A stretch of 64,000 nucleotides of DNA, from the NCBI GenBank assembly GCA_027487865.1, contig JAIYCT010000007.1:1-64000 (forward strand), given 5' to 3'. This DNA is from Microbacteriaceae bacterium (GTDB lineage Bacteria; Actinomycetota; Actinomycetes; Actinomycetales; Microbacteriaceae). A program made the translations under genes and the position numbers. Of the stretch, positions 20,858 through 58,402 are shown one piece after another (within the stretch, counting starts at the first letter, position 1; each line of letters starts with the position of its first letter). The notes under the pieces are model-generated. The model did no database searches, had not been told where the DNA came from, and saw nothing but the letters and a program-made list of their open reading frames with translations.

Positions 20858-21370
20858 GTGGAGATTCAGTCCCCAATGCTGTTCACCGACGGCCTGCCAG
20901 CGCAGGACATCGGTTACCGTGGTGCGTCTGCAGCCGCAGCAGCGGGCATCTCTTACCGCCAGCTTGACTATTGGGACCGCACCGGTTTGGTAATCCCATC
21001 CATCCAAACCGCAACCGGTTCTGGATCTCAGCGTCTTTATGCTTTCCGCGACATCTTGGTTCTAAAGCTGGTGAAGCGCCTACTCGACACCGGAGTATCG
21101 CTACAGCAGATCCGATTTGCGGTTGAGCAGCTTCGTGCTGCCGGGATGAGCGATCTAAGCAACACCACACTTATGTCTGACGGCGCAAGGGTCTACCTCT
21201 GCACCTCGCAGGACGAAGTTATCGACTTGCTGGGCCAGGGCCAGGGCGTATTTGGAATTGCAGTTGGTCGCGTGCTTCGTGAAGTAGAGGCAACCTTGGT
21301 TGACTTTGCGGCTGAAGAGGCCAACATTCAAGATGAACTAGCAGCTCGCAGAGCTCGCAAGATTTCTTAG
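20858..21370 (+). CDS. MerR-family regulator, Rv1830-like
   Basis: This second MerR-type protein has 170 residues. The DNA-binding part reads YRGASAAAAAGISYRQLDYWDRTGLV, then SGSQRLYAFRDILVLKLVKRLLD. The C-terminal half has VYLCTSQDEVIDLLGQGQGV. In M. tuberculosis the bifunctional nuclease gene Rv1829 (DUF151) lies between the two MerR genes; here it is missing and only an 85-base gap remains. AGGGAGAAGG upstream supports the GTG at 20858. The stop TAG overlaps the stop of the opposing parA-like gene by four bases. Confidence 0.87.
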   Translation: MEIQSPMLFTDGLPAQDIGYRGASAAAAAGISYRQLDYWDRTGLVIPSIQTATGSGSQRLYAFRDILVLKLVKRLLDTGVSLQQIRFAVEQLRAAGMSDLSNTTLMSDGARVYLCTSQDEVIDLLGQGQGVFGIAVGRVLREVEATLVDFAAEEANIQDELAARRARKIS

Positions 21371-22284
21371 CGTCTAAACCAACGCTTCTTTTTAGCTTCT
21401 GCCCTTGACTTTGGGGCTTCCTCACTCGGCATCATTTCCGTAATTGGGTTTGCTCTGCCTCGGGTTGCGCGTCCAACAACGCCAACGCGATCGCGTCGTT
21501 CGGTGCCGTGCTCGATGTCAGAAACCGCTCCAGCCAATAGCCAGTCAAAGCTCTTTGCAATCTCGGCTGCACCTTCGGCCGGCCAGGCGTGAATTGGACG
21601 TGCGGCTCCGGTGGACTGCTGAATTGCGGCACGCTCCTCGAAGAACGGCATTAGTAGCTGCTCTTCAAACATCTCTCGCAATTCCTTGATTCGGTACTCG
21701 TGTTCGTTCGACTGAGGGCGAAGTCGGTTTACGACAACTCCCAGCAACTGAAGTCTTGGGGTTAGCTTGGCGCTAATCTCGGCGATTGCTTTACGTGCTC
21801 GGTCGGCAGCGATAACCGAATAGAGCGAAGGCTCGGTAACCAAAATGACCCTGTCCGATGCGACCCAGGCAGTTCTGGTGAGTGCATTGATCGAAGGTGG
21901 GGTGTCGATGATCACCAGGTCGTACTCGTCTTCAATTTGAGTGAGAACTTCTTCTAGCTTCCAGACATCCGCAACCGAAGGCGCTGGGTTGTCCAGCAGC
22001 AGCGAACGAGGTGACCCGACTAAGACATCCATCTTGGAGCTGGCATTCCATGGAGATGGCACGATGGCCCTGCGAATGATTGGAAGTTTGGGGGACTGCA
22101 GCACTTCTGCAACCGAAGTTCCGAAGTCGCTAACAGCTCCTAAGCCGCTAGTTGCATCGCACTGAGGGTCAAGGTCGACCAGCAAAGTGTTCAAGCCCTT
22201 GTTCAGGGCGGCCGACGCCAGACCCAAAGCGACGGTAGTTTTTCCGACGCCACCTTTTAAAGAGCTCACACTTAGAACTTGCAC
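21367..22284 (-). CDS. ParA/MinD-like ATPase with basic C-terminal tail
   Basis: The protein is a deviant Walker ATPase of 305 residues: Walker A SLKGGVGKTTVALGLA, Walker A' LLVDLDPQCDATSGLG, Walker B LVIIDTPPSINAL. The last 45 residues are charged and basic, ending in KSRAEAKKKRWFRR, which may bind DNA or membrane. No parB or polar scaffold gene lies beside it. It is distinct from the scpA-linked ParA at 9003 and could position chromosome or other cargo. The start is GTG 22284; TAGCCT six bases upstream suggests a leaderless transcript. The gene converges on the Rv1830-like gene with a shared TTAG. Confidence 0.85.
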   Translation of the reverse strand: MQVLSVSSLKGGVGKTTVALGLASAALNKGLNTLLVDLDPQCDATSGLGAVSDFGTSVAEVLQSPKLPIIRRAIVPSPWNASSKMDVLVGSPRSLLLDNPAPSVADVWKLEEVLTQIEDEYDLVIIDTPPSINALTRTAWVASDRVILVTEPSLYSVIAADRARKAIAEISAKLTPRLQLLGVVVNRLRPQSNEHEYRIKELREMFEEQLLMPFFEERAAIQQSTGAARPIHAWPAEGAAEIAKSFDWLLAGAVSDIEHGTERRDRVGVVGRATRGRANPITEMMPSEEAPKSRAEAKKKRWFRR

Positions 22285-22308
22285 TGCAATAGGCTACCTT
22301 TTTATAGT
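22279..22308 (+). promoter_or_regulatory. Promoter of pyruvate carboxylase gene
   Basis: TTGCAC (22279-22284) and TATAGT (22303-22308) are spaced by 18 bases, a good vegetative sigma-factor promoter. It overlaps the start region of the divergent parA-like gene, so the two transcription units share this short control region. Confidence 0.6.
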
Positions 22309-22347
22309 CGGGTTCGCCGAAGCACCCCACCGTTTCAGTGAGGTTCT

Positions 22348-25300
22348 ATGTTCAAGAAAATATTGGTTGCCAACCGCGGCGAGATTGCAGTGCGCGCATT
22401 CCGCGCTGCCTATGAGACCGGCGCTTCGACTGTTGCCGTCTATCCATTTGAAGATCGCAACTCCGTTCACCGCCTAAAAGCCGATGAGGCTTACGAGATT
22501 CACGCGGAAGGCTCACCGGTCAAGGCCTACCTTTCGGTTTCGGAAATGATTCGCGTTGCCAAGGAAGCCGGCGCTGACGCAATTTACCCGGGCTATGGCT
22601 TTTTGTCTGAGAATCCAGACCTTGCGCGGGCGGCAAAGGAAAACGGAATCGTATTTGTAGGTCCCGGCCCAGAAGTTTTGGAGCTTGCCGGTGACAAGGT
22701 AAACGCCAAGTTGGCGGCGATCCGAGCTGGAGTGCCAGTTTTGGCATCGACCGAGTCTTCGGATGATGTGAATGTTTTGGTGCCACAGGCTCAAAAAATC
22801 GGATTCCCGCTGTTCGTGAAGGCAGTTGCCGGCGGTGGTGGTCGAGGAATGCGAAAGGTTGACCAAGAGTCTGAGCTATTGCAGTCGCTTGAGGCCGCAA
22901 TGCGTGAGGCTGGCAGTGCTTTTGGCGACTCAAGAGTTTTCTTGGAGCAGGCAGTAATCCGTCCGCGTCACATCGAGGTGCAAATCCTTGCGGATATGCA
23001 CGGCAACATTATTCACCTGCACGAGCGCGACTGCAGCATCCAGCGCAGAAACCAAAAGGTCATCGAGATTGCCCCGGCTCCAAAGTTGGACGATGCTCTT
23101 AGGCAGCAGCTCTTCCGAGATGCAATTGCCTTTGCCAAGGAAATTGGTTACCAGAATGCTGGAACCGTTGAGTTTCTGATTGATACGGTCGGCCCGAATG
23201 CCGGCAAGCACGTCTTTATCGAGATGAACCCGCGCATACAGGTGGAGCACACCGTGACCGAGGAAATTACCGATGTTGACCTAGTTCAGTCCCAAATGAG
23301 AATTGCAGCCGGTGCAACCCTTGAGGAACTAGGGCTTCGCCAAGAGGACATCAAGCCTCACGGATTTGCCCTCCAGTGCCGCATTACAACTGAGGATCCA
23401 AGCGCTGGCTTTAGGCCAGACACTGGAAAGATCACCACCTACCGCTCGCCTGGCGGTGCCGGTATTCGATTAGATGGTGGAACCGTGACAACCGGTGCCG
23501 AGGTTTCTCCACACTTTGACTCGATGCTGGTAAAGCTTGTTGCAAGAGGTAGAGACTTTCACTCAGCGGTTGAAAGAGCCAAGCGCGCGCTAGCGGAATT
23601 CCGCGTGCGCGGGGTTGCTACCAACATCAACTTCCTGCAGGCAGTTTTGGATGACGAGACTTTTGCATCCGGTGAGCTCTCCACCCACTTCATCGACGAG
23701 CGTCCTGAACTTATGAACGGCAAGGTGTCCCAGGACCGCGGCACTAAGGTGCTGCAGTGGTTGGCCGAGGTAACAGTGAATAAGCCATGGGGCACTCGAG
23801 AGGGCAAGATCGACCCATCTCGTAAGCTTCCAAACCTAGACATTTCAACCGAGGCACCAGCTGGAACCAAGCAGTTGCTCACCGAGCTGGGTCCGCAGGG
23901 CTTTGCGGCTTGGATGCGAAGCCAAGAGCGAGTGCTGGTTACCGACACAACTTTCCGTGATGCACACCAGTCACTGCTTGCAACCCGTGTTCGCGGCCGT
24001 GACTTGGTGGCCGCAACCCCGTATGTTGCGCGGATGACTCCGGAGCTTTTATCCATTGAAGCTTGGGGTGGCGCAACCTATGACGTGGCACTGCGTTTTC
24101 TGGGGGAGGACCCTTGGGATCGCCTAGCCCAGATCCGAGACGCACTGCCAAACGTCTGTATCCAAATGCTGCTTCGCGGCAGAAACACCGTTGGCTACAC
24201 CCCATATCCAGAAGAAGTAACGCGGGCCTTCATCTTTGAGGCTGCCCGAACCGGCGTGGACATCTTCCGCATCTTTGATGCTTTAAACGATGTCGACCAG
24301 ATGCTTCCTGCCATTACCGCGGTAAGGGAGACCGGAACGGCTTTGGCTGAGGTTGCCATGAGCTACACCGGAAACCTAGCCGATCCTTCGGAGACGCTTT
24401 ACACCTTGGATTACTACTTGAATCTTGCGGACAAGATCGTTGCTGCCGGTGCTCACGTTTTGGCAATCAAGGATATGGCAGGGCTTTTGCGCCCAGAGGC
24501 AGCCAGAATTTTGGTAACCGCGCTAAGAGAGCGCTTTGATCTTCCGGTTCACCTGCACACTCACGACACTCCTGGTGGCCAGCTGGCCACCCTTTTGGCC
24601 GCAGTTGAGGCTGGAGTGGATGCGGTTGACGTTGCTAGTGCACCAATGGCCGGAACCACCAGTCAGCCTTCGGCATCGGCGTTGGTGGCCGCTCTGGCAT
24701 TCACTAAGCGTGACACCAAGATCAGCCTCGAAAAGATAACTGACCTTGAGCCCTACTGGGAAGCGGTTCGCAGGGTTTATGCACCATTTGAATCTGGCCT
24801 TCCAGGACCAACCGGTCGCGTTTACCGACACGAAATTCCAGGTGGCCAGCTATCTAACCTTCGCCAGCAGGCGATTGCGCTTGGGCTTGGAGACCGCTTT
24901 GAGCTAGTCGAAGAGATGTATGCCGAGGCAAACCGTATTTTGGGCAGACCTCCAAAGGTAACGCCATCCTCCAAGGTGGTTGGCGACCTAGCTCTGCACC
25001 TGGTTGCAGTTGCGGCGGAACCAAAGGACTTTGAGCAAAACCCTCAGAACTATGACATCCCTCAGAGTGTTGTTGGATTTATGGCTGGGGAGCTTGGAGA
25101 CCTTCCGGGTGGCTGGCCTGAGCCATTTAGATCCAAGGTGCTTAGCGGTCGAAGCGTAGACATTTCAATAACTCCGGTTTCTGAGGAGGATTTGCTAAAG
25201 CTGAATTCCAAGAACTACGCCGACATTCGTAGCACCCTGAACCGTCTGCTGTTCCCAGGTCCAACCAAGGATTTCCTGCGCACCAGCAACCTCTACGGTC

Positions 25301-25749
25301 AGCTCGACAAGCTTGCAACCTTGGATTACCTCTACGGTCTCGAGTCGGATGTTGAGCATGTTGTTGAACTGCGCAAGGGAATCCAGCTGTTTGTAGGTCT
25401 TGAAGCAATCGGCGAGGCAGATCTCAAGGGCTTCCGCTCGGTGATGGCAAAGCTTAATGGACAGCTGCGGCCAATCACAGTTCGCGACCACAGCATTCAG
25501 GTAGCCGTTGCCAGCTCAGAAAAGGCCGATCCAAACCAGCCTGGTCACGTTGCCGCACCATTCACCGGAGTAGTTACGCCTAAGGTCGTCATCGGTGACC
25601 CCGTGCTAATCGGCCAGCCGATTGCAAGCATTGAAGCGATGAAGATGGAAGCCAACATTGCAGCTCCTATTTCAGGTCGCGTGGTTCGACTAGGCGTCGC
25701 AGGTCCAACCCCGGTCGAAGGCGGAGACCTAATCGCGGTCATCGAGTAG
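22348..25749 (+). CDS. pyc: Pyruvate carboxylase
   Basis: Pyruvate carboxylase makes oxaloacetate from pyruvate, bicarbonate and ATP, an anaplerotic step. At 1133 residues it is the full single-chain form: biotin carboxylase (KILVANRGEIAVRAFRAA, GGGGRGMRKV, HIEVQILAD) to about residue 455, carboxyltransferase with DTTFRDAHQSLLATRVR and the metal-ligand pair HLHTHDT, and a C-terminal biotinyl domain with K1099 in EAMKMEANI. The sequence continues without break. A biotin protein ligase is needed but is not in this window. The gene is monocistronic or cotranscribed with def, six bases downstream. Confidence 0.97.
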   Translation: MFKKILVANRGEIAVRAFRAAYETGASTVAVYPFEDRNSVHRLKADEAYEIHAEGSPVKAYLSVSEMIRVAKEAGADAIYPGYGFLSENPDLARAAKENGIVFVGPGPEVLELAGDKVNAKLAAIRAGVPVLASTESSDDVNVLVPQAQKIGFPLFVKAVAGGGGRGMRKVDQESELLQSLEAAMREAGSAFGDSRVFLEQAVIRPRHIEVQILADMHGNIIHLHERDCSIQRRNQKVIEIAPAPKLDDALRQQLFRDAIAFAKEIGYQNAGTVEFLIDTVGPNAGKHVFIEMNPRIQVEHTVTEEITDVDLVQSQMRIAAGATLEELGLRQEDIKPHGFALQCRITTEDPSAGFRPDTGKITTYRSPGGAGIRLDGGTVTTGAEVSPHFDSMLVKLVARGRDFHSAVERAKRALAEFRVRGVATNINFLQAVLDDETFASGELSTHFIDERPELMNGKVSQDRGTKVLQWLAEVTVNKPWGTREGKIDPSRKLPNLDISTEAPAGTKQLLTELGPQGFAAWMRSQERVLVTDTTFRDAHQSLLATRVRGRDLVAATPYVARMTPELLSIEAWGGATYDVALRFLGEDPWDRLAQIRDALPNVCIQMLLRGRNTVGYTPYPEEVTRAFIFEAARTGVDIFRIFDALNDVDQMLPAITAVRETGTALAEVAMSYTGNLADPSETLYTLDYYLNLADKIVAAGAHVLAIKDMAGLLRPEAARILVTALRERFDLPVHLHTHDTPGGQLATLLAAVEAGVDAVDVASAPMAGTTSQPSASALVAALAFTKRDTKISLEKITDLEPYWEAVRRVYAPFESGLPGPTGRVYRHEIPGGQLSNLRQQAIALGLGDRFELVEEMYAEANRILGRPPKVTPSSKVVGDLALHLVAVAAEPKDFEQNPQNYDIPQSVVGFMAGELGDLPGGWPEPFRSKVLSGRSVDISITPVSEEDLLKLNSKNYADIRSTLNRLLFPGPTKDFLRTSNLYGQLDKLATLDYLYGLESDVEHVVELRKGIQLFVGLEAIGEADLKGFRSVMAKLNGQLRPITVRDHSIQVAVASSEKADPNQPGHVAAPFTGVVTPKVVIGDPVLIGQPIASIEAMKMEANIAAPISGRVVRLGVAGPTPVEGGDLIAVIE

Positions 25750-25755
25750 GTTGCC

Positions 25756-26250
25756 GTGGCAGTAAGAGAAATTCGGCTATTTGGCGATCCCGTACTGAAA
25801 TCGCCGACTGCTGAAATCAAAGATTTTGAGTCAGCCAAAGGGCTGATTCAGGACTTACTCGACACCACAGCCCTTCCCGGTCGTGCCGGAGTTGCAGCTA
25901 CCCAGATCGGTGTTGGTCTTTCTGCTTTCTCCTATAACGTCGATGGCAACATCGGTTACCTGATCAACCCAGAAATCGTAAAGGTCGAGGGCGAGATAGA
26001 ACTTGTTGAAGAGGGTTGCCTCTCGGTGCCAGGGCTGTGGCATATGACACCGAGGTATCCCAAGGCTACGGCCCGCGGTTTCCAGCTGGACGGAAGTCAA
26101 ATTGAGGTTACGGGGGAAGGGCTTATGGCTCAGGCCCTGCAGCACGAGTGCGACCACCTCAAAGGACTCTTGTATTTAGATCGCCTAGAAAAAGAAGAAC
26201 GCAGGTTGGCTTTCGCCAACCTGCGTCAACAGACCTGGTTTCTTCCCTAG
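25756..26250 (+). CDS. def: Peptide deformylase
   Basis: Def removes the formyl group from the N-terminal methionine of nascent proteins. All three motifs are present in the 164 residues: GVAATQIGVG, EEGCLSVPG with the metal-binding Cys, and QHECDHLKG with the two His ligands and the catalytic Glu. The GTG start lies six bases behind pyc. The stop TAG overlaps the stop of the opposing acyl-CoA ligase gene in CTAG. Confidence 0.96.
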   Translation: MAVREIRLFGDPVLKSPTAEIKDFESAKGLIQDLLDTTALPGRAGVAATQIGVGLSAFSYNVDGNIGYLINPEIVKVEGEIELVEEGCLSVPGLWHMTPRYPKATARGFQLDGSQIEVTGEGLMAQALQHECDHLKGLLYLDRLEKEERRLAFANLRQQTWFLP

Positions 26251-28040
26251 CCGTATATTCTGTCTACGTGAAGGGCAAAGTCAGACATAACCTTTGGTCG
26301 CTTGATCTTTAGCGATGGAGTCAAGTGACCAGAAGCTTCGGTTAGCTCGACATCCAGAATCTCGAACTCCTTGATTTGCTCAGCAGTTGAGAACTTCTTG
26401 TTCACAACGGCAATTGCGCCTGCAATCTCTTCACGAATCTTCGGGTGCTTGGCAGCTTCGGCAAGGGTCAACTTTTCAGCGATGCCATTATTTGCTGTCC
26501 AAACCGGAACCATGTCTGGGTCCAGGGAAATCAAAGCCGAGATGAATGGCTTTGCATCACCAATCACAACTACCTGTCCAACAAGTGGGTGCGCGCGGAT
26601 TGGGTCCTCGATCGGAGCCGGGGCTACGTTCTTTCCACCCGCGGTGACCAAGATCTCCTTCTTGCGACCGGTAATGGTCAAGAAGCCATCCTCGTCCAAC
26701 TCACCAATGTCTCCGGTGCGGAACCAGTCTTCAGCGAAGGCCTCGCGAGTAGCACTCTCATTGCGCCAGTAACCACGCATCATGTTGATGCCGCGTAGCC
26801 AAATCTCTCCGTCATCGGCAATCTTGATGCCGGTGCCGGGAAGCGCTCGGCCTACCTTGCCGATCTTCTGCCAGCTGACGCGACCAATAACCGCAGCAGC
26901 TGCAGTCTCGGTTAGGCCATAGCCCTCAAGAACGATTAGGCCGATGCCGCGGAAGAAGTGACCTAGTCGAGCGCCCAGTGGGGCACCACCGGAGATGGCG
27001 TACTTGACCCCACCACCCATGGCAGCGCGAAGCTTGGAGTAAACCAGCTTGTCAAACAGTCCGTGCTTTACCTTCAAACCAAGCGATGGGCCACCCTTGG
27101 CATCAAGCGCCTTGCTGTATTCGATAGCGGTCTCTGCGGCAGCGCGGAAGATTTTGCCCTTGCCGGCAGCTTCAGCCTTTAGTTCAGCACCGTTGTAAAC
27201 CTTCTCGAATACACGAGGCACTGCGAGCAAGAACGTCGGCTTGAATACCGGAAGCACTTCGCCAACCAACTTGGTGTCACCTAGGTGACCAACACGGATG
27301 CCGGAGTAGATGCAAAGAACCGATACGTAACGAGCCAGGATGTGAGCCATTGGCAAGAAGATCAGTGAGTGCTGCTTGTCGTTGGCAATTTCAGGTAGCT
27401 CGGCTGCTGCATTCTTGCAGTGGTCAACTAGCGAGCGGTGAGTTAGCTCACAGCCCTTTGGGTTGCCAGTGGTACCAGAGGTGTACACGATGGTTGCCAA
27501 ATCACCTAGCGACGCATTGGTGCGTGCGGTTTCTAGGACCTCGTCCGCTACGGTTTCGCCGGACTGGTGCAGCTTGGTGAAGTCTGAAGAATCGATCTTC
27601 CAAACCTGGCTAACCCTAGGAGTGTTAGAGCGAACCTGGTCAACTCGTGCCTGGTGCTCTTCGTTCTCAATAAACAAGGCGACAGCATCTGAGTCTGAAA
27701 GGATCCATTCGATCTGTGAAGGGGAGCTCGACTCGTAGATAGGGACTGTTACAGCACCGGCAAACCAGATCGCAAAGTCGATCATCGACCACTCGTAGCG
27801 GGTCTTGGACATGATGGCCACCGCCTGTCCAGGCTTTATGCCGGCGGCAATCAATCCCTTGCCCAAAGTTCTCACTTCGGCCAAGAAGTCACCGGCGGTT
27901 ACATCACGCCAGCTCTTGTCTGGGTTCTGTCTCGAAAAAAGTGGGTGTTGTGGGTTCTTGGCGACCCGCTGAAGCAATAGATCTGTGGCATTTTCCTGCG
28001 GGTTTGATTCCACCAACAGCGGCACATCGTAAAACGTCAT
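26247..28040 (-). CDS. Long-chain fatty acid--CoA ligase (FadD15-like)
   Basis: This AMP-forming acyl-CoA synthetase has 597 residues. The P-loop-like motif is TIVYTSGTTGNPKGCELTH, the A5 motif is EGYGLTETAAA, and the A7/A8 motifs are DWFRTGDIGELDEDGFLTITGRK in two adjoining parts, with KEILVTAGGKNVAP. The long-chain, FadD15 or Streptomyces-type subgroup is indicated by length and by the glk-plsC-aroG context. GGGAGAAA seven bases before ATG 28040 fixes the start; a longer in-frame start at 28082 has no ribosome site. It may activate fatty acids for phospholipid synthesis with the neighbouring plsC. Confidence 0.92.
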   Translation of the reverse strand: MTFYDVPLLVESNPQENATDLLLQRVAKNPQHPLFSRQNPDKSWRDVTAGDFLAEVRTLGKGLIAAGIKPGQAVAIMSKTRYEWSMIDFAIWFAGAVTVPIYESSSPSQIEWILSDSDAVALFIENEEHQARVDQVRSNTPRVSQVWKIDSSDFTKLHQSGETVADEVLETARTNASLGDLATIVYTSGTTGNPKGCELTHRSLVDHCKNAAAELPEIANDKQHSLIFLPMAHILARYVSVLCIYSGIRVGHLGDTKLVGEVLPVFKPTFLLAVPRVFEKVYNGAELKAEAAGKGKIFRAAAETAIEYSKALDAKGGPSLGLKVKHGLFDKLVYSKLRAAMGGGVKYAISGGAPLGARLGHFFRGIGLIVLEGYGLTETAAAAVIGRVSWQKIGKVGRALPGTGIKIADDGEIWLRGINMMRGYWRNESATREAFAEDWFRTGDIGELDEDGFLTITGRKKEILVTAGGKNVAPAPIEDPIRAHPLVGQVVVIGDAKPFISALISLDPDMVPVWTANNGIAEKLTLAEAAKHPKIREEIAGAIAVVNKKFSTAEQIKEFEILDVELTEASGHLTPSLKIKRPKVMSDFALHVDRIYG

Positions 28041-28180
28041 TGTTTTCTCCCATTCGAGTTTCAAATACTCTAATCGCCACATTGAGTGCGGGAGCTACAA
28101 CTCATGTAACTTTTTTCCTGTTTTTTTGTAACCTTTCCACAAAGCGGTAAAATTTAGCTTCGGCAATCTACGATGTATAA
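28041..28180. promoter_or_regulatory. Divergent promoter region fadD / glk
   Basis: On the plus strand TTGTAA (28126-28131) and TAAAAT (28148-28153) are 16 bases apart. TACGAT at 28169-28174 ends six bases before the glk ATG and could serve as the -10 of a leaderless transcript, since no Shine-Dalgarno is seen. On the minus strand TAGAGT (28072-28067) lies upstream of the acyl-CoA ligase ribosome site. The T-rich runs at 28110-28127 raise AT content. Confidence 0.5.
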
Positions 28181-29137: not shown

Positions 29138-29158
29138 GCATCGCGACTGGAGCACAAA

Positions 29159-29845: not shown

Positions 29846-29858
29846 CTAAAGGAACAGA

Positions 29859-31202: not shown

Positions 31203-31541
31203 ATGTCACTTCCAGGTGTCGATAGCTGGCTAAGCATTGATGAGGCCGGTGAGCAGCTTGGCATTTCTGCATCCAAGGTGAGAAGGCTTATCGAAGAGCA
31301 CGTGCTCTTTAGTGTCCGAGTCGATAAGCAGCCAATGATTCCTGCCCACCTGATTCAAAATGGTGAGCCGCTAGCCAGCATTCGTGGAACCCTATTTCTT
31401 TTGCTTGACTGCAGTCTGACCCTCGATGAGGCAATCGACTGGATTTATACCGAGAATGAGCACTTGGGTAGAACCCCGATTGCTGCGCTACTGGAAGGCC
31501 ACAAGGCTCCGGTTAGAAGAGCTGCTCAGTCGCTGGGCTAA
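31203..31541 (+). CDS. Rv2175c-like winged-helix DNA-binding protein
   Basis: The protein has 112 residues. The N-terminal half is a winged helix (SWLSIDEAGEQLGISASKVRRLIEE, with split motif) and the C-terminal half matches the Rv2175c extension (GTLFLLLDCSLTLDEAIDW). In M. tuberculosis Rv2175c binds DNA and is phosphorylated by the adjacent kinase PknL. No kinase gene is here: aroG lies three bases upstream and the polyprenyl synthase gene converges from the other side. AGGAGATAG before the ATG 31203 provides the ribosome site. Confidence 0.87.
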   Translation: MSLPGVDSWLSIDEAGEQLGISASKVRRLIEEHVLFSVRVDKQPMIPAHLIQNGEPLASIRGTLFLLLDCSLTLDEAIDWIYTENEHLGRTPIAALLEGHKAPVRRAAQSLG

Positions 31542-31545
31542 AGCC

Positions 31546-32646
31546 TTATTTACTGCGGTTGATTACCGCTTCAGTCAGATTCGCAAGTTCTTTACGACCC
31601 TGCTCTGAGATTTCCAGCTCGGCAAGCGCCTCAATGGCTCGGTCTGAGTACTGCTCAATCAAAGCTTCAGTCTTGGCAAGGGCACCGGAGTCCACAATGG
31701 CATTTCGCATGAAATCGATCTGTTCACCATCGAGATCTCCGCTAACCAAGAGTTCTTCAAAGATGTTCGCAACACTTACCGGCAGTGCTTCCAAGGTCAG
31801 ACCAATCAAAACAGTTCGCTTGCCTTCGCGAAGGTCATCTCCGGCCGGCTTGCCGGTAACCTGAGGGTCACCAAAAACTCCAAGAATGTCGTCTCTGAGC
31901 TGGAATGCCAGTCCCAGCGGGATTCCGAAGTTGCTCAGGCTCTTTAGCTCGGATTGGTGAGCACCACCGAGGGCAGCCCCGATCAACAGCGGCGCCTCCA
32001 GGCTGTATTTCGCGGTTTTATAGAGCATCACCTTGTTGGCTCTAGCCACTGCCTCAGACTTGGAGCGAAGTGGAGCGGCATTTTCCTCTAGGACATCAAG
32101 GTACTGACCAGCCATAACCTCAAAACGCATCTTTGAGAACTCGGTTCGGCAGGCCGCTTCAATCACCTCACCGGGGGAGTGCAATAGGGCCTCGCCAAAC
32201 AGTTCCGACGACCACGAAAGCATCATGTCGCCAACAAGCACCGAACCTGCGACTCCAAAGCGCTCTGCGCTTCCAGCAAATCGGCTGGATTGGTGCAGTG
32301 ATTCAAAGCGCTTGTGGATCGCCGGCTTTCCTCTGCGGGTATCAGATTGATCCAGCAGGTCATCGTGAACCAGAGCTGCTGCGTGAAACATTTCTAGCGC
32401 TGCTGCCACCGAAACCACAGGGGTTTCAACGCTCAGTTTGGCGGTGTCAAACTCCACCACCTGGTAGCCGGCCCAGGCCCAGAAGGCAAACAGGGCGCGG
32501 AATCGCTTGCCGCCGGCAAGTAGATCCTGGGTGTAGTCGATGATGGGCACTAAGTCATCTGAGATCTCAGTTAGCTCAGAACGCTTGAGGTCGCAATACA
32601 CATCCAAACGGTGCTGGACCAGATTTAGTATAAAACCTTGAGACAT
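31546..32646 (-). CDS. idsA: Polyprenyl diphosphate synthase (IdsA type)
   Basis: The enzyme is a trans-isoprenyl diphosphate synthase of 366 residues that makes geranylgeranyl or longer diphosphates. The first Asp-rich motif lies in HDDLLDQSDTRRGKPAIH and the second in QLRDDILGVFGD; GGKRFRALF is the usual upstream motif. The product chain length is not certain. ATG 32646 is chosen; a frame from 32703 would extend across the promoter. TAGGCT seven bases upstream and the absence of a Shine-Dalgarno suggest a leaderless transcript. Products may feed carotenoid, retinal or menaquinone synthesis. Confidence 0.9.
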   Translation of the reverse strand: MSQGFILNLVQHRLDVYCDLKRSELTEISDDLVPIIDYTQDLLAGGKRFRALFAFWAWAGYQVVEFDTAKLSVETPVVSVAAALEMFHAAALVHDDLLDQSDTRRGKPAIHKRFESLHQSSRFAGSAERFGVAGSVLVGDMMLSWSSELFGEALLHSPGEVIEAACRTEFSKMRFEVMAGQYLDVLEENAAPLRSKSEAVARANKVMLYKTAKYSLEAPLLIGAALGGAHQSELKSLSNFGIPLGLAFQLRDDILGVFGDPQVTGKPAGDDLREGKRTVLIGLTLEALPVSVANIFEELLVSGDLDGEQIDFMRNAIVDSGALAKTEALIEQYSDRAIEALAELEISEQGRKELANLTEAVINRSK

Positions 32647-32653
32647 AGGGGAT

Positions 32654-32680
32654 AGCCTAACTGAGCTTCGCTGTTTACAA
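32654..32680 (-). promoter_or_regulatory. Promoter of idsA, probably leaderless
   Basis: Reading the minus strand, TTGTAA (32680-32675) precedes TAGGCT (32659-32654) by 15 bases, and the ATG begins after a further seven bases. The spacing from the -10 box places the transcription start at the start codon. The same 56-base gap must also hold the promoter for the divergent DUF3040 gene. Confidence 0.55.
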
Positions 32681-32702
32681 TTAGGGAAGAACGGAGTTGA
32701 CA

Positions 32703-33047
32703 ATGGGACTATCTGAGCGCGAGCAAAAACTGCTCGAAGAGATGGAACGCAACCTAATGGCGCAAGACGCCGAGTTTGCTAAAACCATTTCCAGCACCAC
32801 CAGCGCCAACCAGTCGGCAGGAAAGCTGGTGCTTGGCGTTTTGATCCTGCTCTCGGGCCTTGGACTTTTGGTCCTGGCAGTGGCTCTCCAGGTTGCGTTT
32901 TTTGGCGTCGTTGCCTTCTTGGTGATGGTGATCGGGCTGGTTATTGCCAGTGCAAACTTCAGACTTCCGGAACTTCCAGCCGCAGGCGACAAGCCAAAGG
33001 CGACTTTCTTTGAGGATCGTTGGAATCAACGCTTCGGCAACGAATAG
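32703..33047 (+). CDS. DUF3040 membrane protein
   Basis: The protein has 114 residues with the DUF3040 pattern: a short cytoplasmic N-terminus GLSEREQKLLEEMERNL, a linker, then two adjacent hydrophobic helices at about residues 40-85, and a polar C-terminus. The family is common and uncharacterised in actinobacteria and is normally found just before mraZ, as here. ATG 32703 with GGAG six bases upstream is preferred over an in-frame TTG at 32697. A strong terminator follows. The function is unknown. Confidence 0.87.
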   Translation: MGLSEREQKLLEEMERNLMAQDAEFAKTISSTTSANQSAGKLVLGVLILLSGLGLLVLAVALQVAFFGVVAFLVMVIGLVIASANFRLPELPAAGDKPKATFFEDRWNQRFGNE

Positions 33048-49401: not shown

Positions 49402-49451
49402 AGCGAATAACATAGCGTGAGCGCTTTTGCGCTGTATCAGGAAGGTGCAAC

Positions 49452-50150: not shown

Positions 50151-50631
50151 AGCAAGAACCTTCCTTTTCCTTGGAATTGGCGTTTTCTTAGTTTTTCTTG
50201 ATCAGCTAACCAAAGAGTTGGCAATTGCCGAACTTTCTGACGGTTCTGTCATGCCCGTAATAGGTGAAATTCTCAGATTCCGACTTGCCTATAACGACGC
50301 TGCTGCATTTTCGCTCGGCGTTGGCCAGACCTGGGTGCTAGCGATTATTGCCTGCTGTGCGGTGCTAGCGCTTTTGTGGTTTGGACCAAAGGTCAAAAAC
50401 CTCACCTGGACCATCATCGCCGGTCTGGTCCTGGGCGGAGCTGCAGGAAATTTGGTTGACAGACTCACTCGCGCTCCAGGTTTCCTAAATGGGCATGTCG
50501 TTGATTTCATCTCGATTCCATTCAACTTCCCGATTTTCAACTTGGCTGACACCTTCTTGGTTGTCGGTGTATCACTGGCAATGCTCAGAACGCTTATGGG
50601 TGACGAACTGGGTGGCAAGGTTGGCAAGTAA
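50137..50631 (+). CDS. lspA: Signal peptidase II (lipoprotein)
   Basis: LspA cleaves lipoprotein signal peptides. The 164 residues have four membrane helices and both catalytic Asp regions: NDAAAFSLG and FNLADTFLVVG. GTG 50137 overlaps the divIVA end by 14 bases. In most actinobacteria ileS lies between divIVA and lspA; it is absent from this place. A substrate is present in the window: the CtaC precursor with LAGC. Confidence 0.92.
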   Translation: MSASKARTFLFLGIGVFLVFLDQLTKELAIAELSDGSVMPVIGEILRFRLAYNDAAAFSLGVGQTWVLAIIACCAVLALLWFGPKVKNLTWTIIAGLVLGGAAGNLVDRLTRAPGFLNGHVVDFISIPFNFPIFNLADTFLVVGVSLAMLRTLMGDELGGKVGK

Positions 50632-51556: not shown

Positions 51557-51559
51557 GCT
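51554..51559 (+). promoter_or_regulatory. Possible -10 box of dnaE
   Basis: TAGGCT lies across the rluD stop, 31 bases before the dnaE ATG, in the only short gap here. A -35 box is not evident. GGAGGTGAA in front of the dnaE ATG is a strong ribosome site. Confidence 0.35.
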
Positions 51560-51590
51560 AAGGGCCCGTCGATGAATAAGTGGAGGTGAA

Positions 51591-54500
51591 ATGAGCGATT
51601 CGTTCGTCCATTTGCACAACCACACCGAGTATTCGATGCTCGATGGAGCTGCGCGCATCAAGCAATTGGTTGCCAAAGCCGCAGACCTTCAGATGCCTGC
51701 AATCGCCATGACCGACCACGGCAATGCTCACGGTGCATATGAATTTTGGAACCAGGCAACCTCGCACGGCATCAAGCCAATCATCGGTATTGAGGCCTAC
51801 CTAGCCCCTGGAAGTCGCAAAGAGAAGTCCAAGGTTCGCTGGGGCGTCGGGGGAGAAGACGACGTTTCTGGTGGCGGTGCCTACTCACACATGACGATGT
51901 GGGCAACTGACAACAAATCGATGCAAAACCTGTTTCGGCTTTCTTCCGAAAGCTATCTTTCTGGCTACTACTTCAAACCTCGAATGGATCGCGAGTTACT
52001 GCACAAATACGGCAAGGGTCTTATTGCAACCACCGGTTGCCCAGGTGGTGAGGTTCAGACTCGTATTCGCCTCGGACAATACAAAGAGGCTGTTGAGACA
52101 GCTGCTGAATTCCGTGACATTTTTGGCGAGGGTAATTTCTTTGTCGAGCTGATGGACCACTCGCTGGATATCGAAAAGCGCGTTCGCGAGGACCTGCTTC
52201 GACTTGCCAAAGATCTAAACCTTCCTTTGGTTGCCACCAATGACCTGCACTACACCGAGGCTGAGGATGCAACTGCCCATGATGCACTGCTGTGTGTTCA
52301 GGTTGGGTCAAATCTCTACGACGAGAATCGCTTCAAGTTTGAATCTCAGGAGTACTACCTGAAGTCCGCGCAGCAGATGCGCGAGATATTCAAAGAGCAC
52401 CCGGAAGCCTGCGATAACACCCTGCTAATCGCCGAGAAGTGCGAAGTGAGTTTTGAGAAGCGTGATCTGATGCCTAGGTTCCCAGTTCCAGAGGGGGAGA
52501 CCGAGAGCGGTTGGCTGGATAAAGAGGTTTGGCGCGGTATGGATCGCCGTTTCCCAAATGGTTATTCGGATCGATACAAGCAGCAGGCAGCTTACGAAAT
52601 TGATGTGATTCGAAACATGGGTTTCCCGGGTTACTTCTTGGTAGTCGCCGACTTCATCGGCTGGGCTCGCCAGCAGGGAATCCGCGTAGGTCCCGGTCGT
52701 GGCTCAGCGGCAGGATCGTTGGTGGCGTATGCGCTTGGCATTACCGAGCTCGATCCAATTGTTCACAACTTGATCTTTGAGCGCTTTTTGAACCCGGAGC
52801 GTTTATCGCTGCCGGATATCGATGTCGACTTTGATGACCGCAGGCGTCCCGAAGTTATTCGCTACGTCACCGAGAAATACGGCGAAGACCGAGTGGCTCA
52901 GATCGTCACCTTCGGAACCATCAAGGCAAAGCAGGCCCTAAAGGATGCCGCCAGGGTATTGGCCATGCCCTATGCGGTGGGCGAAAAGCTAACCAAGGCA
53001 ATGCCGCCAATGGTTTTAGGGCGCGATATTGCGCTGAATGAGCTGGTGGACCCAACCGCTGAGCGCTACTCAGAGGCAGCGGAATTCAGAGAGATCATCG
53101 AGAGTGACGAGGATAGCCAAAAGGTCTTTGATCTTGCCAAGGGGCTTGAGGGCCTAAAGCGCCAGTGGGGCGTTCACGCAGCCGGAGTAATCATGTCGGC
53201 CGAGCCGCTAATGGATGTCATTCCAATTATGAAGCGCGAAGAAGATGGCGCAATCATTACGCAATTTGACCAGCCTCCCTGTGAGTCGCTTGGTCTATTG
53301 AAGATGGACTTTTTGGGTCTTAGAAACCTGACCATGCTTGATGATGCACTGTTCAACATCAAGCTCAACCGCAATGAAACTGTGGTGCTCGAAGAGCTCG
53401 ATCTCAATGCGGATGAGAAGACCTTCGAGCTGCTTTCTCGCGGTGACACCCTGGGTGTTTTCCAGCTTGATGGTGATTCCATGCGTCAGCTGCTGAGACT
53501 TTTGAAACCGTCTGAATTCGAGCACATCTCGGCAGTTATCGCGCTATACCGCCCGGGACCTATGGGTATGAATTCGCACATCAACTATGCCCAGCGCAAA
53601 AATGGTTTGCAGGAGTCCGAGGGTGTGCACCCGGAGCTGATGGAGCCACTGAGTGAGATTTTGGATCCGACCTACGGCCTGATTGTGTACCAGGAGCAGG
53701 TGATGTCAGCCGCTCAGAAAGTCGCTGGCTACACGCTTGGTCAAGCGGATCTTTTGCGCCGAGCCATGGGTAAGAAAAAGCCCGAGGAGCTAGACAAGCA
53801 GCTTGAGGTCTTCCGATCGGGCATGAAGGGCAACGGCTTCTCAGATGGCGCCATCAAGGCCCTTTGGGACACGCTTTTGCCGTTTGCCGATTATGCGTTC
53901 AATAAGGCTCACTCGGCTGGTTACGCGGTACTTAGCTACTGGACCGCATACCTAAAGGCCAATTTCCCAGCCGAATATATGGCTGCTTTGCTTACCTCGG
54001 TTGGAGACTCCAAGGAAAAGCTGGCGGTCTATCTCAATGAGTGTCGCAGGATGGGCATCCAGGTTCTACCTCCCGATGTGAATCAATCCATAAGTGGCTT
54101 TGCGGCGGTTGGAAACGATATTCGATTTGGCCTAAACGCGATTCGCAATGTTGGCAAAAACGTTGTCGATGCCATCGTCGAGGCTCGCGCAGAATCCCCG
54201 TTTGATTCTTTCCAGGATTACCTCACCAGGGTGGCATCGCAGGCGGCTACCAAGAGATGCGTTGAATCACTTATCAAGGCCGGTGCCTTTGACTCCCTTG
54301 GTCACACCAGACGCTCCCTAATTGCGGTTCACGAAGAGGCGATTGACTCCTCGGCGGTATTGAAGAAACAGGCGCTGAGCGGTCAGGTAGATCTCTTCGG
54401 TGGCATGTTTGATGAGGATCCGGCTATGGTTCCGATCCCGAATCTTCCGGAGTGGACTAAGCGCGACCTGTTAGCTCACGAGCGAGAAATGCTGGGGCTA

Positions 54501-55082
54501 TACGTCTCCGACCATCCGCTGGCTGGTCAAGAGGCGCTCCTGATGCGTCACTCGGATATGGGAACAATTGCTCTGAAAGACAGCGAAATCAAAGATGGCG
54601 AGTCGGTCACTTTGGCAGGTCTGATTACCCAGGTTCAGCACAAAGTGGCCAGAGCCTCGGGTAACCCCTACGGGCAGGTTGTGCTAGAAGACTTCTCGGG
54701 CGAAATATCAATCATGTTTATGGGTAAGACCTACCTTGAAAATCGTGAGCTACTTAAGGCTGACCAGACGGTATCAATTCGCGGACGAATCCAAAGGCGA
54801 GACGAAGAGATAATGCTCTCGGCTTATTCCATTGAAGTGCTTGAAGCCGGTCGCGAGGCAGGCGGTGTTCTGATCATTACCGTGAAAGAAGCACTCGCCA
54901 CCAAGAGCAATTTGCAAAAGCTGTCCGAAATCTTGACCAAGAATCCCGGCCCGGTCGAGGTTCAGATCAAGATGCAAAACGGTGGGGATTCAAAGCACTT
55001 TTTACTGCCGCAACGAATCTCTGTCGGTCACGATCTTTTCGGCGAAATCAAGGCCCTGTTAGGCCAAGACGCGGTCAACTAG
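51591..55082 (+). CDS. dnaE: DNA polymerase III alpha subunit
   Basis: DnaE is the replicative polymerase. The 1163 residues contain an N-terminal PHP domain (FVHLHNHTEYSMLDGAARI), the polymerase core with GPGRGSAAGSLVAY and the catalytic PDIDVDFDDRRR, a tandem helix-hairpin-helix part, and a C-terminal OB fold (VTLAGLITQVQ). The PHP His and Asp residues are present (HNH at the start and TDHGN), so proofreading by PHP is plausible, as known for actinobacterial DnaE1. The TAG stop is part of a CTAG shared with the opposing gene. Confidence 0.97.
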   Translation: MSDSFVHLHNHTEYSMLDGAARIKQLVAKAADLQMPAIAMTDHGNAHGAYEFWNQATSHGIKPIIGIEAYLAPGSRKEKSKVRWGVGGEDDVSGGGAYSHMTMWATDNKSMQNLFRLSSESYLSGYYFKPRMDRELLHKYGKGLIATTGCPGGEVQTRIRLGQYKEAVETAAEFRDIFGEGNFFVELMDHSLDIEKRVREDLLRLAKDLNLPLVATNDLHYTEAEDATAHDALLCVQVGSNLYDENRFKFESQEYYLKSAQQMREIFKEHPEACDNTLLIAEKCEVSFEKRDLMPRFPVPEGETESGWLDKEVWRGMDRRFPNGYSDRYKQQAAYEIDVIRNMGFPGYFLVVADFIGWARQQGIRVGPGRGSAAGSLVAYALGITELDPIVHNLIFERFLNPERLSLPDIDVDFDDRRRPEVIRYVTEKYGEDRVAQIVTFGTIKAKQALKDAARVLAMPYAVGEKLTKAMPPMVLGRDIALNELVDPTAERYSEAAEFREIIESDEDSQKVFDLAKGLEGLKRQWGVHAAGVIMSAEPLMDVIPIMKREEDGAIITQFDQPPCESLGLLKMDFLGLRNLTMLDDALFNIKLNRNETVVLEELDLNADEKTFELLSRGDTLGVFQLDGDSMRQLLRLLKPSEFEHISAVIALYRPGPMGMNSHINYAQRKNGLQESEGVHPELMEPLSEILDPTYGLIVYQEQVMSAAQKVAGYTLGQADLLRRAMGKKKPEELDKQLEVFRSGMKGNGFSDGAIKALWDTLLPFADYAFNKAHSAGYAVLSYWTAYLKANFPAEYMAALLTSVGDSKEKLAVYLNECRRMGIQVLPPDVNQSISGFAAVGNDIRFGLNAIRNVGKNVVDAIVEARAESPFDSFQDYLTRVASQAATKRCVESLIKAGAFDSLGHTRRSLIAVHEEAIDSSAVLKKQALSGQVDLFGGMFDEDPAMVPIPNLPEWTKRDLLAHEREMLGLYVSDHPLAGQEALLMRHSDMGTIALKDSEIKDGESVTLAGLITQVQHKVARASGNPYGQVVLEDFSGEISIMFMGKTYLENRELLKADQTVSIRGRIQRRDEEIMLSAYSIEVLEAGREAGGVLIITVKEALATKSNLQKLSEILTKNPGPVEVQIKMQNGGDSKHFLLPQRISVGHDLFGEIKALLGQDAVN

Positions 55083-55600
55083 GAGTTGTCGGCCAACCGC
55101 TCGGTAGCGGTTAGGTAACCGCGCTTGTAGTAGAGCAGCGGACTATCTTCTTGCAAAGCTTCGGTGCCGTGCAGGATGTCGAGCACCACAACCGCATTGG
55201 CTTCAACTTCAAAGCGCTCCCGCACCTTTCCGATCAGGATGCTTGAAGCACTTGGGAAAACTGGCAACTGGCCGACCAGCTGGTAATCACCTTCGATAAA
55301 GCGCTCTTCTTTGGGACCCGCCATGCGCTGGGCCAACTCTAGGTTTGTGGCAGAGAGAGTGTGAAGGGCAACATCACGTCCAACAACCAAATGTGGGTAG
55401 CTAGAAGAGCCACGAGCGATGTTGAATGAGACCAGCGGCGGGTTTGAGCCCAAAGACGTCACCGATGTCGCGGTGAATCCAATCGGCTGACCGTCTTGGT
55501 CGTGGGAGGTAATTATCGCTACGCCAGAGGCGTGCATGCGAAAGGTCGCCTTTAGCGCATCTGAGCCAATCGCGGGGAAGTTCAAGGATTCTGTAGTCAT
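55079..55600 (-). CDS. Flavin reductase-like FMN-binding protein
   Basis: This 173-residue protein has the FMN-binding split barrel of the flavin reductase (HpaC-like) family: FRMHASGVAIITSHDQDG, GFTATSVTSLGSNPPLVSFNI, and the C-terminal PLLYYKRGYLT. It could supply reduced flavin to a monooxygenase, but no oxygenase partner lies nearby. It reads against dnaE and hisD. The ATG at 55600 has CGGGAG directly beside it, too close for a normal ribosome site; TAACCT nine bases upstream could be a -10 box. Confidence 0.85.
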   Translation of the reverse strand: MTTESLNFPAIGSDALKATFRMHASGVAIITSHDQDGQPIGFTATSVTSLGSNPPLVSFNIARGSSSYPHLVVGRDVALHTLSATNLELAQRMAGPKEERFIEGDYQLVGQLPVFPSASSILIGKVRERFEVEANAVVVLDILHGTEALQEDSPLLYYKRGYLTATERLADNS

Positions 55601-55652
55601 CTCCCGATAAGGTTAGGGCATTACTTCTTTCGCAGCGAAAACCAGAGGTAAA

Positions 55653-56960
55653 GTGCGCGTTATAGAAATCACAGGTCCTATCACTCAGGATCAAATTCGC
55701 GGTGCACTGCCCAGGGCCTCAGTCAGCGTTGAGAAGGCATTGGGAACGGTTTTGCCGCTAATTGAAGACGTAAAGCACAACTCCCTTTCGGCACTTTTGG
55801 ATCAAGCAGAGCGTTTTGATGATGTTCGTCCCGAGTTTGTTAGAGTGCCGCAAACGGTCATCGACCAGTCCGTTTCGCAACTCAGCACTGAGCTCAGGGC
55901 AGCAATTGAGACTGCAATTGAGCGGGTTCGGAAGGTATCGCTTGCGGGAGTCCCGAAAGATTTCGAAGTGGAGCTAGCTGCAGGTGCGCTGGTTTCCCAG
56001 CGCTATGTCCCAGTTGACTCGGTCGGGCTCTATGTCCCAGGCGGCAAGGCTGTTTACCCTTCAAGTGTTGTGATGAACGCGGTTGCCGCTCAATCGGCCG
56101 GTGTCCCAAGAATTGCGATTGCATCGCCACCTCAAAAGGAATTTGGCGGATTACCGCACCCAACGATTTTGGCAACCGCAGCATTGCTAGGCGTCACTGA
56201 GGTTTACGCAATCGGGGGAGCGGCAGCGGTTGCGGCATTTGCCTATGGGGTGACTGAAATCGAGCTAGCTCCGGTTCGAATGGTTACAGGTCCCGGAAAT
56301 GTCTATGTCGCGGCGGCCAAGCGAGCGCTCAGAGGTTTGATCGGAATTGATTCTGAGGCCGGTCCAACCGAGATCCTGATAATCGCGGATGACAGCGCTA
56401 ACCCGAAGAGCATTGCGGCCGACCTGATTTCTCAAGCCGAGCACGACGAGAACGCTGCTGCGGTTCTGGTTACTGACAGTAGCGACCTAATCTCCGCAGT
56501 TCAGATCGAGCTTGCCGAACAGATTGCTATTACCAAGAACGCTGAACGTGTCAAGGCTGCACTTGGCGGCCTGCAGTCGGCGTTGGTTTTAGTGCCAAAT
56601 TTGGCAACCGCGGTTGCAGTTAGCAACGAGTACGCCACCGAGCACCTTGAAATACAGACTAGAAATCCCAAGGCTTTGCTTCCAAAAATCACCAATGCCG
56701 GAGCAATCTTTCTGGGGGAGTTTTCTCCCGTTAGCCTTGGGGATTACCTTGCCGGTAGCAATCACGTTCTACCAACCGGCGAGCAGGCTAAATTTGGTCC
56801 AGGACTCGGTGTCCACACCTTCTTAAGGCCACAACAGGTAGTCGACTACTCTCAATCAGCCCTGGCTGAAGTGGCAAGCCAGCTTGATACCTTTGCGAGT
56901 GCCGAAGGCTTGAGCGCACACGGCGATGCTGCCAAGATTAGATTCACCGGAGGTAACTAA
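55653..56960 (+). CDS. hisD: Histidinol dehydrogenase
   Basis: HisD oxidises histidinol to histidine in two NAD-dependent steps. The 435 residues include [47 protein letters not shown], the metal and base motif [14 protein letters not shown], and [20 protein letters not shown]. It stands alone, separated from any other his gene in this window. The start is GTG 55653 with AGAGG upstream. The stop TAA overlaps the nrdR ATG by one base. Confidence 0.95.
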
Positions 56961-57403
56961 TGTTTTGCCCATTTTGCAGACATGCAGATTCCAGGGTTAT
57001 TGACTCAAGAACCTCGGATGATGGATCAGCTATTCGCCGCAGAAGACAGTGTCCTGAGTGTCAGAAGCGCTTCACTACCTTAGAGACCGCCTCGCTCATG
57101 GTGACTAAGCGCAGCGGTGTAACCGAACCTTTTTCCAGGGACAAGATTGTTTCCGGTGTCCGCAAGGCTTGCCAGGGACGCCCCGTTACTGATGCCGACC
57201 TAGCTTTATTGGCCCAACAGGTCGAAGAGACGCTTCGGTCCTCGGGTGCTGCAACCATTGAGGCGCAGGACATTGGCCTGGCGATCCTGGAACCACTTCG
57301 TCAGTTGGACTACGTTGCGTTCATGCGCTTTGCCTCGGTTTACCAGGCTTGGGACTCGCTGGATGATTTTGAGCGGGCGATTTCGGATCTGCGGGGGAAC
57401 TAA
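56960..57403 (+). CDS. nrdR: Ribonucleotide reductase repressor NrdR
   Basis: NrdR represses ribonucleotide reductase genes in response to ATP and dATP. The 147 residues begin with a zinc ribbon (CPFC, then CPEC with KRFTTLE) and continue with an ATP-cone domain ([22 protein letters not shown] in parts). The ending [12 protein letters not shown] is typical. It is translationally coupled to hisD, a partnership also seen in some actinobacteria. Confidence 0.95.
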
Positions 57404-57406
57404 CCC

Positions 57407-58402
57407 TTGTATCGGCTGCTCTTCAATCTCTTTTTCAAGCCGCTGGATGCGGAAACCTCCCACAAGATTGTTGACACCGCCCTGCGTCTAGCTTCCAAAG
57501 TGGGAGTTCTTCGGGCAAGCAAGCGCGAAAAGCCAATAACTGTAATGGGTCTTGGCTTTGAGAACCGCCTTGGGCTTGGAGCGGGGTTTGACAAAAACGC
57601 CCAGTTGGTCAGGCCGCTGCACGCCTTAGGTTTTGGGCACGTCGAAGTCGGCACCGTGACCTTCCACGCTCAACCGGGAAATCCAAAACCTCGATCCTTC
57701 CGCATTCCACAATACGATGCCCTGATCAATCGAATGGGCTTCAATAATGACGGTGCTGCTGTTATCGGCAAGCGCCTAGAGAAGCTTCGCCGGGACTACA
57801 CAAACCTTCCGGTGATTGGCGTGAATATCGGTAAGAGTCGAATTGTCGAGGCAAAAGATGCCGCCAATGACTATCGCGCCACCACCAAGCTGGTTGCCAG
57901 GGTTGCGGACTATCTGGCCGTAAACGTCTCATCGCCTAACACTCCAGGACTTAGGGATTTGCAGCAGGTTGAGTCACTGAGGCCGATTTTGCAGGCGGTT
58001 TTGGATGAGTGCCAAGGCAAGCCGGTGTTGGTGAAGGTTTCCCCAGACCTTGCCGATGACGACTTTATGGCGGTGCTAAAGCTGGTCCAGGACCTTGCGC
58101 TAACCGGTGTGATTATGACCAACACCACCACTAGACGTGACGGGGTTGGCGACTCTGAGATCTTGAAAGAGGCCGGCGGTCTTTCCGGACCAGTACTTGC
58201 TGCGCGCTCAATCGAGATGCTCCGGATTGCCAGAAGAGAACTGCCAAAAGAATTTGTAATCATCTCGGTGGGTGGAGTAAGTTCCGTTGTCCAAGCCGTC
58301 GAGCGCGTTCACCTTGGGGCAGATTTAGTGCAGGTTTACACCGGCTTGATCTACCAGGGTCCAGCCTGGCCTAGAAGACTTGCGAAAGCGCTAGCTAACT
58401 AG
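57407..58402 (+). CDS. pyrD: Dihydroorotate dehydrogenase, class 2
   Basis: PyrD oxidises dihydroorotate to orotate with a quinone acceptor. The 331 residues have the class 2 marks: an N-terminal helical membrane-contact region (YRLLFNLFFKPLDAETSH), GLGAGFDKNAQLV, NRMGFNNDG, and VNVSSPNTPGLRDLQ with the catalytic Ser. The TTG start lies three bases after nrdR with GGGGGA upstream. The stop is within CTAG, shared with the opposing aldo/keto reductase gene. Confidence 0.95.
   Translation: MYRLLFNLFFKPLDAETSHKIVDTALRLASKVGVLRASKREKPITVMGLGFENRLGLGAGFDKNAQLVRPLHALGFGHVEVGTVTFHAQPGNPKPRSFRIPQYDALINRMGFNNDGAAVIGKRLEKLRRDYTNLPVIGVNIGKSRIVEAKDAANDYRATTKLVARVADYLAVNVSSPNTPGLRDLQQVESLRPILQAVLDECQGKPVLVKVSPDLADDDFMAVLKLVQDLALTGVIMTNTTTRRDGVGDSEILKEAGGLSGPVLAARSIEMLRIARRELPKEFVIISVGGVSSVVQAVERVHLGADLVQVYTGLIYQGPAWPRRLAKALAN

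Follow-up and report, generated by a model that had tools for sequence, protein, structure and literature searches.

A model of how gene overlaps are created and repaired was reportedly put forward by Kingsford and co-workers in 2007. For convergent genes, Lillo and Krakauer (2007; PMC2174442), in the parts of that paper drawn on here, described a jump at overlaps of four bases, with the same tetramers as we report below and with an origin in stop codon mutation, together with raised use of TAG in the convergent overlaps of E. coli. In their 58-species set, 672 of 1890 convergent overlaps were shorter than five bases (the difference of their Tables 2 and 3), and in E. coli a Rho-independent terminator lay in the convergent partner for one gene in 19 of 58 overlaps and for both genes in 2 of 58. 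Sections of another paper discuss stop movement in convergent overlaps (PMC4161906). As to how such transcripts end, a preprint, in the portions used here, reports that head-on polymerase collision ends convergent E. coli transcripts without a classical intergenic terminator and that hairpins position it (PMC13082048), whilst the relevant part of a study of the reduced genome of Rickettsia prowazekii gives 11 of 12 convergent transcripts examined as lacking a defined end site (PMC3027695). Here we analyze a 64,000-nucleotide stretch of a Microbacteriaceae genome (the window; contig JAIYCT010000007.1), in which convergent genes repeatedly meet in a 4-base overlap that holds both stop codons, and follow these junctions through the genome, its genus and its family.

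The genome under study (G000; 1,465,243 bases in 13 contigs, read in stretches) was annotated with our own 3-periodic Markov gene caller at order 3; order 5 missed def and other genes. Distances between convergent gene ends are given as positive for gaps and negative for overlaps. Exactly -4 was found for 66 of the 185 convergent pairs, with the next commonest distances, 0 and -11, at 7 pairs each, and 117 of 185 pairs overlapped by some length. Two other model orders gave 63/186 and 65/184 at -4, and where both genes were at least 450 bases long the count was 44/119. A first-pass annotation of the window, made from its letters alone, had claimed that the -4 junctions exceed chance spacing, and the genome-wide counts uphold this. 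When compared with the annotation of E. coli K-12 over four 50-kb stretches of NC_000913, where 27 annotated convergent pairs were counted by hand (neighbors split by annotated pseudogenes being left out), the caller placed 24 of 27 pairs at the exact distance, including three of the four at -4. The pairs that it missed were rmf/fabA, hchA/hprS and yqfG/yqfH.

The same excess was seen in samples from three further species of the genus: 9/21 pairs at -4 in G002 (200 kb), 7/14 in G007 (100 kb) and 3/12 in G011 (100 kb). Samples of 200 kb from other genera of the family gave 3/28 in G031, 1/17 in G035, 1/38 in G027 and 0/23 in G034, so that the pooled counts were 19/47 for the three species of the genus vs 5/106 for the four other genera (Fisher's exact test p = 1.2e-7). 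The first-pass annotation had proposed comparing convergent distances genome-wide and in relatives; the excess at -4 is present in G000 and the sampled species of its genus, and -4 is far rarer in the samples from the other genera. In the E. coli K-12 annotation, by our hand count, 4/27 pairs were at -4 (p = 0.047 vs G000) and 6/27 overlapped. The four annotated E. coli pairs at -4 are zapC/ycbX, yccX/tusE, yedP/dgcQ and yqfG/yqfH. As E. coli K-12 also has such pairs, their kind is widespread and it is the degree that stands out here. The genome G031 matches the samples from the genus in small size and in coding density (93%, same caller), but overlaps were seen at just 6/28 of the convergent pairs sampled from it; as far as this small sample goes, streamlining by itself is insufficient as an explanation. 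The unusual feature is the collapse of convergent spacers (117/185 pairs overlapping in G000 vs 6/28 in G031); the overlaps are known in kind, and it is their degree that is extreme and, among the genomes sampled, specific to the genus.

Within the window, gene ends were taken from open reading frame (ORF) coordinates and from direct reading of the sequence (Table 1). Our own gene calls give five convergent pairs, four at -4 and one with a 4-base gap, and all ten proteins of these pairs have a Pfam match above the cut-off; each of the four overlaps is thus formed by a pair of genuine, oppositely oriented genes that have both stops within the same four bases. The first-pass annotation had listed four exact 4-base overlaps, one TTAG and three CTAG, and a fifth pair (Rv2175c-like/idsA) that does not overlap, and it was right on both. 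Given the genome rate, the probability of at least four of five junctions at -4 is 0.058; the trait belongs to the whole genome, and the window happens to show it a little more strongly than average. Elsewhere in the window, a 775-codon ORF (16626-18953, plus strand) has no Pfam match and was not picked by our caller at orders 2-4 (lists inspected in part) or at order 5; it is probably a true gene with an unusual composition, or else a frame open by chance.

Table 1. Convergent junctions in the window and the candidate terminator inside def (positions are those of the window).
Feature	Position	Genes or strand	Basis or remark
TTAG common to both stops	21367-21370	MerR-type regulator 20858-21370 (+) / ParA-type ATPase 21367-22284 (-)	ORFs, sequence, Pfam
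CTAG common to both stops	26247-26250	peptide deformylase def 25756-26250 (+) / AMP-binding enzyme, fadD-like 26247-28082 (-)	ORFs, sequence, Pfam
4-base gap	31542-31545	Rv2175c-like 31203-31541 (+) / polyprenyl synthetase (idsA) 31546-32703 (-)	ORFs, sequence, Pfam; sole non-overlapping convergent pair in window
CTAG common to both stops	55079-55082	dnaE (DNA polymerase III alpha) 51591-55082 (+) / flavin reductase 55079-55600 (-)	ORFs, sequence, Pfam
CTAG common to both stops	58399-58402	dihydroorotate dehydrogenase (pyrD) 57407-58402 (+) / aldo/keto reductase 58399-59400 (-)	ORFs, sequence, Pfam
13-bp stem, GAAA loop	26198-26227	-	wholly within def; reads as a putative intrinsic fadD terminator; stem end 20-50 bases beyond fadD stop
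T-rich run after stem on minus strand	26183-26197	-	no such run on plus-strand side of hairpin

Orthologous junctions were surveyed for dnaE, def and pyrD, with the parA and idsA junctions lying outside the survey; where the partner was not adjacent (beside flavin reductase in G023, G024 and G032, and at 8 of 10 fadD loci outside the genus) the locus gives no distance. Of the 21 other genomes surveyed in the genus, 20 had the dnaE/flavin reductase junction at -4, the exception being G001 at +3, and its tetramer varied among the species between CTAG, TTAG and CTAA. Outside the genus the same two genes were separated by gaps of +33, +13, +59, +73 and +6. Across 19 genomes of the genus, def/fadD was at -4 in 6, -11 in 9, -8 in 2, -10 in 1 and +11 in 1; outside it, gaps of +75 and +76 were found, both containing a strong, plain hairpin, with a T-rich run after it in G023. 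For pyrD/aldo-keto reductase, 20 other genomes of the genus gave -4 in 11, -14 in 7, -26 in 1 and -29 in 1. In G009-G021 the distances -11 (def/fadD) and -14 (pyrD/aldo-keto reductase) recur, pointing to -4 not being the sole long-lived state. Where a -4 pair of G000 had a convergent orthologue in the samples, this was also at -4 in 7/8 cases in G002, 6/6 in G007, 2/4 in G011 and 1/6 in G031. Judged from these distances, the overlaps look old within the genus; -4 is the most frequent of several states, and the outgroups have spacers. Whether orthologous pairs in relatives end apart had been raised by the first-pass annotation; outside the genus they do (dnaE/flavin reductase and def/fadD), some with plain hairpins.

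A length of four follows from the stop codons themselves: when a pyrimidine precedes TAA or TAG, one frame of the opposite strand reads a stop there too. In a null built from unselected gene ends of G000, 15.8% of extensions stop at exactly 4 bases, equal to 38.5% of those of up to 30 bases, which makes 4 bases the modal overlap. The 66 G000 pairs at -4 comprised 29 CTAG, 20 TTAG, 17 CTAA and no TTAA, vs about 24 CTAG, 21 TTAG, 21 CTAA and 1 TTAA expected from a hand calculation on the usage of stops and of the bases before them. That TTAA is missing (0/66) fits the presence of T before only 6% of TAA stops and the genome-wide rarity of this tetramer. Relative to trinucleotide content, the observed/expected ratio of TTAA was 0.39 in G000, 0.35 in G002, 0.27 in G007 and 0.52 in G011, with CTAG near expectation (0.83-0.98). 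CTAG as a special signal was ruled out: the tetramer mix tracks stop and last-base usage, and the tetramer drifts at the dnaE/flavin reductase junction. A special role for this palindrome is not supported by these counts.

We also ran a toy simulation in which deletions outnumbered insertions by 2.5 or 5 to one, each added residue carried a cost of 1 to 4 and -4 was not itself selected. At the two later time points, the fraction of pairs at -4 was 0.23-0.52 and that of overlapping pairs 0.28-0.92, and with the same settings the earliest time point gave 0.02-0.16 at -4. Under deletion bias, -4 came to be the most frequent state. Within this model, deletion bias together with a cost of C-terminal extension is shown to reach the observed -4 frequency without selection for -4, which speaks to sufficiency only.

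Intrinsic terminators at convergent ends were scored in the style of d'Aubenton-Carafa, with d > 20 taken as strong. In G000 a strong terminator in at least one direction was present at 18/43 pairs with gaps of 25 bases or more, 1/25 with gaps of 0-24, 3/66 at -4 and 1/51 of the other overlaps. At the -4 pairs of relatives the counts were 2/9 in G002, 2/7 in G007, 0/3 in G011 and 0/3 in G031. Control antisense ends in G000 gave no strong terminator (0/1008). Counted by ends, 3/132 at -4 vs 0/1008 controls passed d > 20 (p = 0.0015), and 6/132 vs 10/1008 passed d > 0 (p = 0.006, control counts derived from rates); among 548 stretches downstream of close tandem genes the proportion above d > 20 was 0.005, which is a softer contrast with the -4 ends. 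A stricter hairpin detector found 6/132 at -4 vs 6/540 in controls (p = 0.017), but no difference when all overlapping ends together were compared with controls (p = 0.20). A general enrichment of hairpins behind -4 junctions was tried as a description and set aside, being weak in G000 (mean -14.1 vs -13.1 kcal/mol in controls, p = 0.06); in G002, where the sample is small, it was more marked (p = 0.003). Loss of Rho was ruled out, since Rho was found in 20 of 21 genomes and the one in which it was missed, G014, is 50% complete. Most collapsed junctions thus lack an intrinsic terminator, and a few carry a likely one within the opposing gene.

One of these few is a hairpin inside def that has the textbook form of an intrinsic terminator, a stable G+C-rich hairpin and then a T-rich run, on the fadD strand. 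Its terminator score was 43.8 and its fold z-score -4.79, with 1 of 200 shuffles as stable. The hairpin is identical in G000, G013 and G018 and occurs as variants in G004, G002 and G001, giving four distinct sequences that stand for six genomes. Across these, 52 of 52 cells of the 13 pairs were paired (shuffle mean 89%, 2/500 shuffles as high), a measure favored by the structure having been derived from the same sequences; 5 of the 13 pairs had changed on both sides (shuffle mean 2.5, 6/500 shuffles as high). Slid controls had at most 44% of cells paired, and the number of pair types was not exceptional (253/500 shuffles). All six genomes encode the peptide R(R/K)LAFANLR under the hairpin, and the changes are therefore almost entirely synonymous. 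A hairpin without a T-rich run is retained at this site in G007, and G011 has none like it. Sequence form and covariation support a fadD terminator embedded in def. In the coding direction of def no T-rich run follows the hairpin, and translating ribosomes would probably cover it.

Two further likely embedded terminators at -4 junctions recur across species. One, of an enoyl-ACP reductase-like gene, lies within the converging HAD-phosphatase gene (G000 C4:94048; also in G002, G007 and G011); its hairpin of 9 pairs had 36/36 cells paired and 2 pairs changed on both sides, these two in G011, and is a weaker case than def (37/500 shuffles as high). The other, of the ribosomal protein L31 gene, lies within a converging exonuclease gene (G000 C4:89838; also in G002 and G007). 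Other likely embedded terminators in G000 were at C10:394356 (score 47.8, -4), C10:325914 (16.6, -4) and C7:436190 (39.8, -29). The first-pass annotation had stated that intergenic terminators are lost entirely at these junctions. This agrees with the 63/66 pairs at -4 that have no strong one, but it goes too far in the light of the covarying candidate inside def and of the strong terminators kept at 18/43 wide-gap pairs.

We consider it probable that these are ordinary stop-to-stop convergent overlaps that have accumulated to an extreme degree in this genus. The spacer between converging genes would be deleted together with its terminator, as the spacers retained in outgroups suggest. Once the two ends touch, a lost stop would, by the arithmetic on G000, be most cheaply replaced by the stop already present on the other strand, giving the 4-base overlap. 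This state would be sticky: its central two bases serve both stops, and at the outer bases an exchange of C with T or of A with G would be silent for both genes. Long extensions would be weeded out; tetramer drift and retention of the junction are observed, and this may be their cause. Transcription would then have to end within the opposite gene, at a minority of junctions by an intrinsic terminator carried within that gene's own codons (predicted at def/fadD), and at the others probably by Rho, head-on polymerase collision or diffuse readthrough.

Several observations count against this account. Loss of a stop and extension to the next one gives the mode but not the full height of the peak, as -4 made up 66/105 overlaps of up to 30 bases vs the null of 38.5% (p = 4e-7); to account for this excess, either the trap or a degree of selection has to act on top of plain extension. 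At def/fadD -11 is commoner than -4 (9 vs 6 of 19), and -14 holds 7/20 at pyrD/aldo-keto reductase. The toy model gives -4 at only 0.03-0.24 with weak costs (0.1-0.3) and at 0.00-0.04 with balanced indels, and the values used for its indel ratio and costs were our choice rather than measurements. Nor is the trait predicted by coding density (G031, a small sample). The first-pass annotation had named deletion pressure in a streamlined genome as the cause: the deletion part is consistent with the outgroup spacers and with the deletion-biased model, whilst the streamlining part is not upheld as it stands, in that high coding density was insufficient in G031.

The height of the peak is also what could be expected if the -4 junction itself were selected, for instance as a fixed meeting point for polymerase collision or for mutual control of both genes. 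Retention of -4 at dnaE/flavin reductase in 20/21 genomes would suit such selection, as would the description, in part of a preprint (PMC13082048), of collision as a way in which convergent E. coli genes end transcription. We nevertheless think it unlikely: the toy model matches the observed frequency without selection for -4, the tetramer mix tracks stop usage, and the orthologues of def/fadD and pyrD/aldo-keto reductase use -11, -8, -14 and other distances. Similarly doubtful, in our judgment, is a broader version in which the genus has rebuilt the boundary of convergent operons as a shared-stop junction with collision or Rho, some terminators in the neighbor's coding sequence being kept by synonymous covariation, and in which -4 is selected and not only a mutational trap.

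Still less probable is that, as a general rule, the terminators of converging genes have been relocated to the coding sequence of the opposing partner, with the overlaps as a by-product. The strong embedded terminators at -4 in G000, G002 and G007, set against 0/1008 controls, and the covariation in def and, weaker, in the HAD phosphatase gene are what it would predict, yet in G000 no terminator passes d > 20 at 63/66 of the pairs at -4 or at 50/51 of the remaining overlaps, the tandem-gene rate softens the contrast, and with the stricter detector the overlaps as a whole do not differ from controls. That the overlaps are an artefact of gene calling we regard as next to impossible. As CTAG reads TAG on both strands, chance ORFs could terminate there and be called as genes; this was ruled out by the Pfam match in each of the ten window proteins, by the 44/119 pairs of long genes still at -4 and by the 24/27 annotated E. 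coli pairs called exactly, and orthologues align up to or near their ends.

Ordinary overlaps accumulated to this degree make the genus as a whole a natural setting where a terminator could not fit between most pairs of converging genes, and so offer a direct test of how transcripts end without intergenic signals. A likely terminator kept inside the coding sequence of another gene, and visible through synonymous covariation, suggests a way to find dual-coding terminators elsewhere. Our literature search, with subscription papers mostly outside it, found no description of this genus nor of a covarying terminator inside an opposing gene. Against the multi-species set, as given in the sections of Lillo and Krakauer (2007; PMC2174442) used here, G000 has 66 of its 117 convergent overlaps, and 66 of its 185 convergent pairs, at -4. 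The candidate in def resembles the embedded terminators of E. coli in the same source in that the terminator of one gene lies in the coding sequence of its convergent partner; unlike them, as far as those sections go, its stem can be traced from species to species and covaries whilst the encoded protein stays almost unchanged. Collision, as the preprint in part describes it (PMC13082048), is a mechanism needing no spacer terminator, and it may act at the overlaps here. In R. prowazekii the intergenic regions of the convergent pairs were 137 to 1910 bases long, according to the part of that study drawn on (PMC3027695), whereas most spacers have disappeared here.

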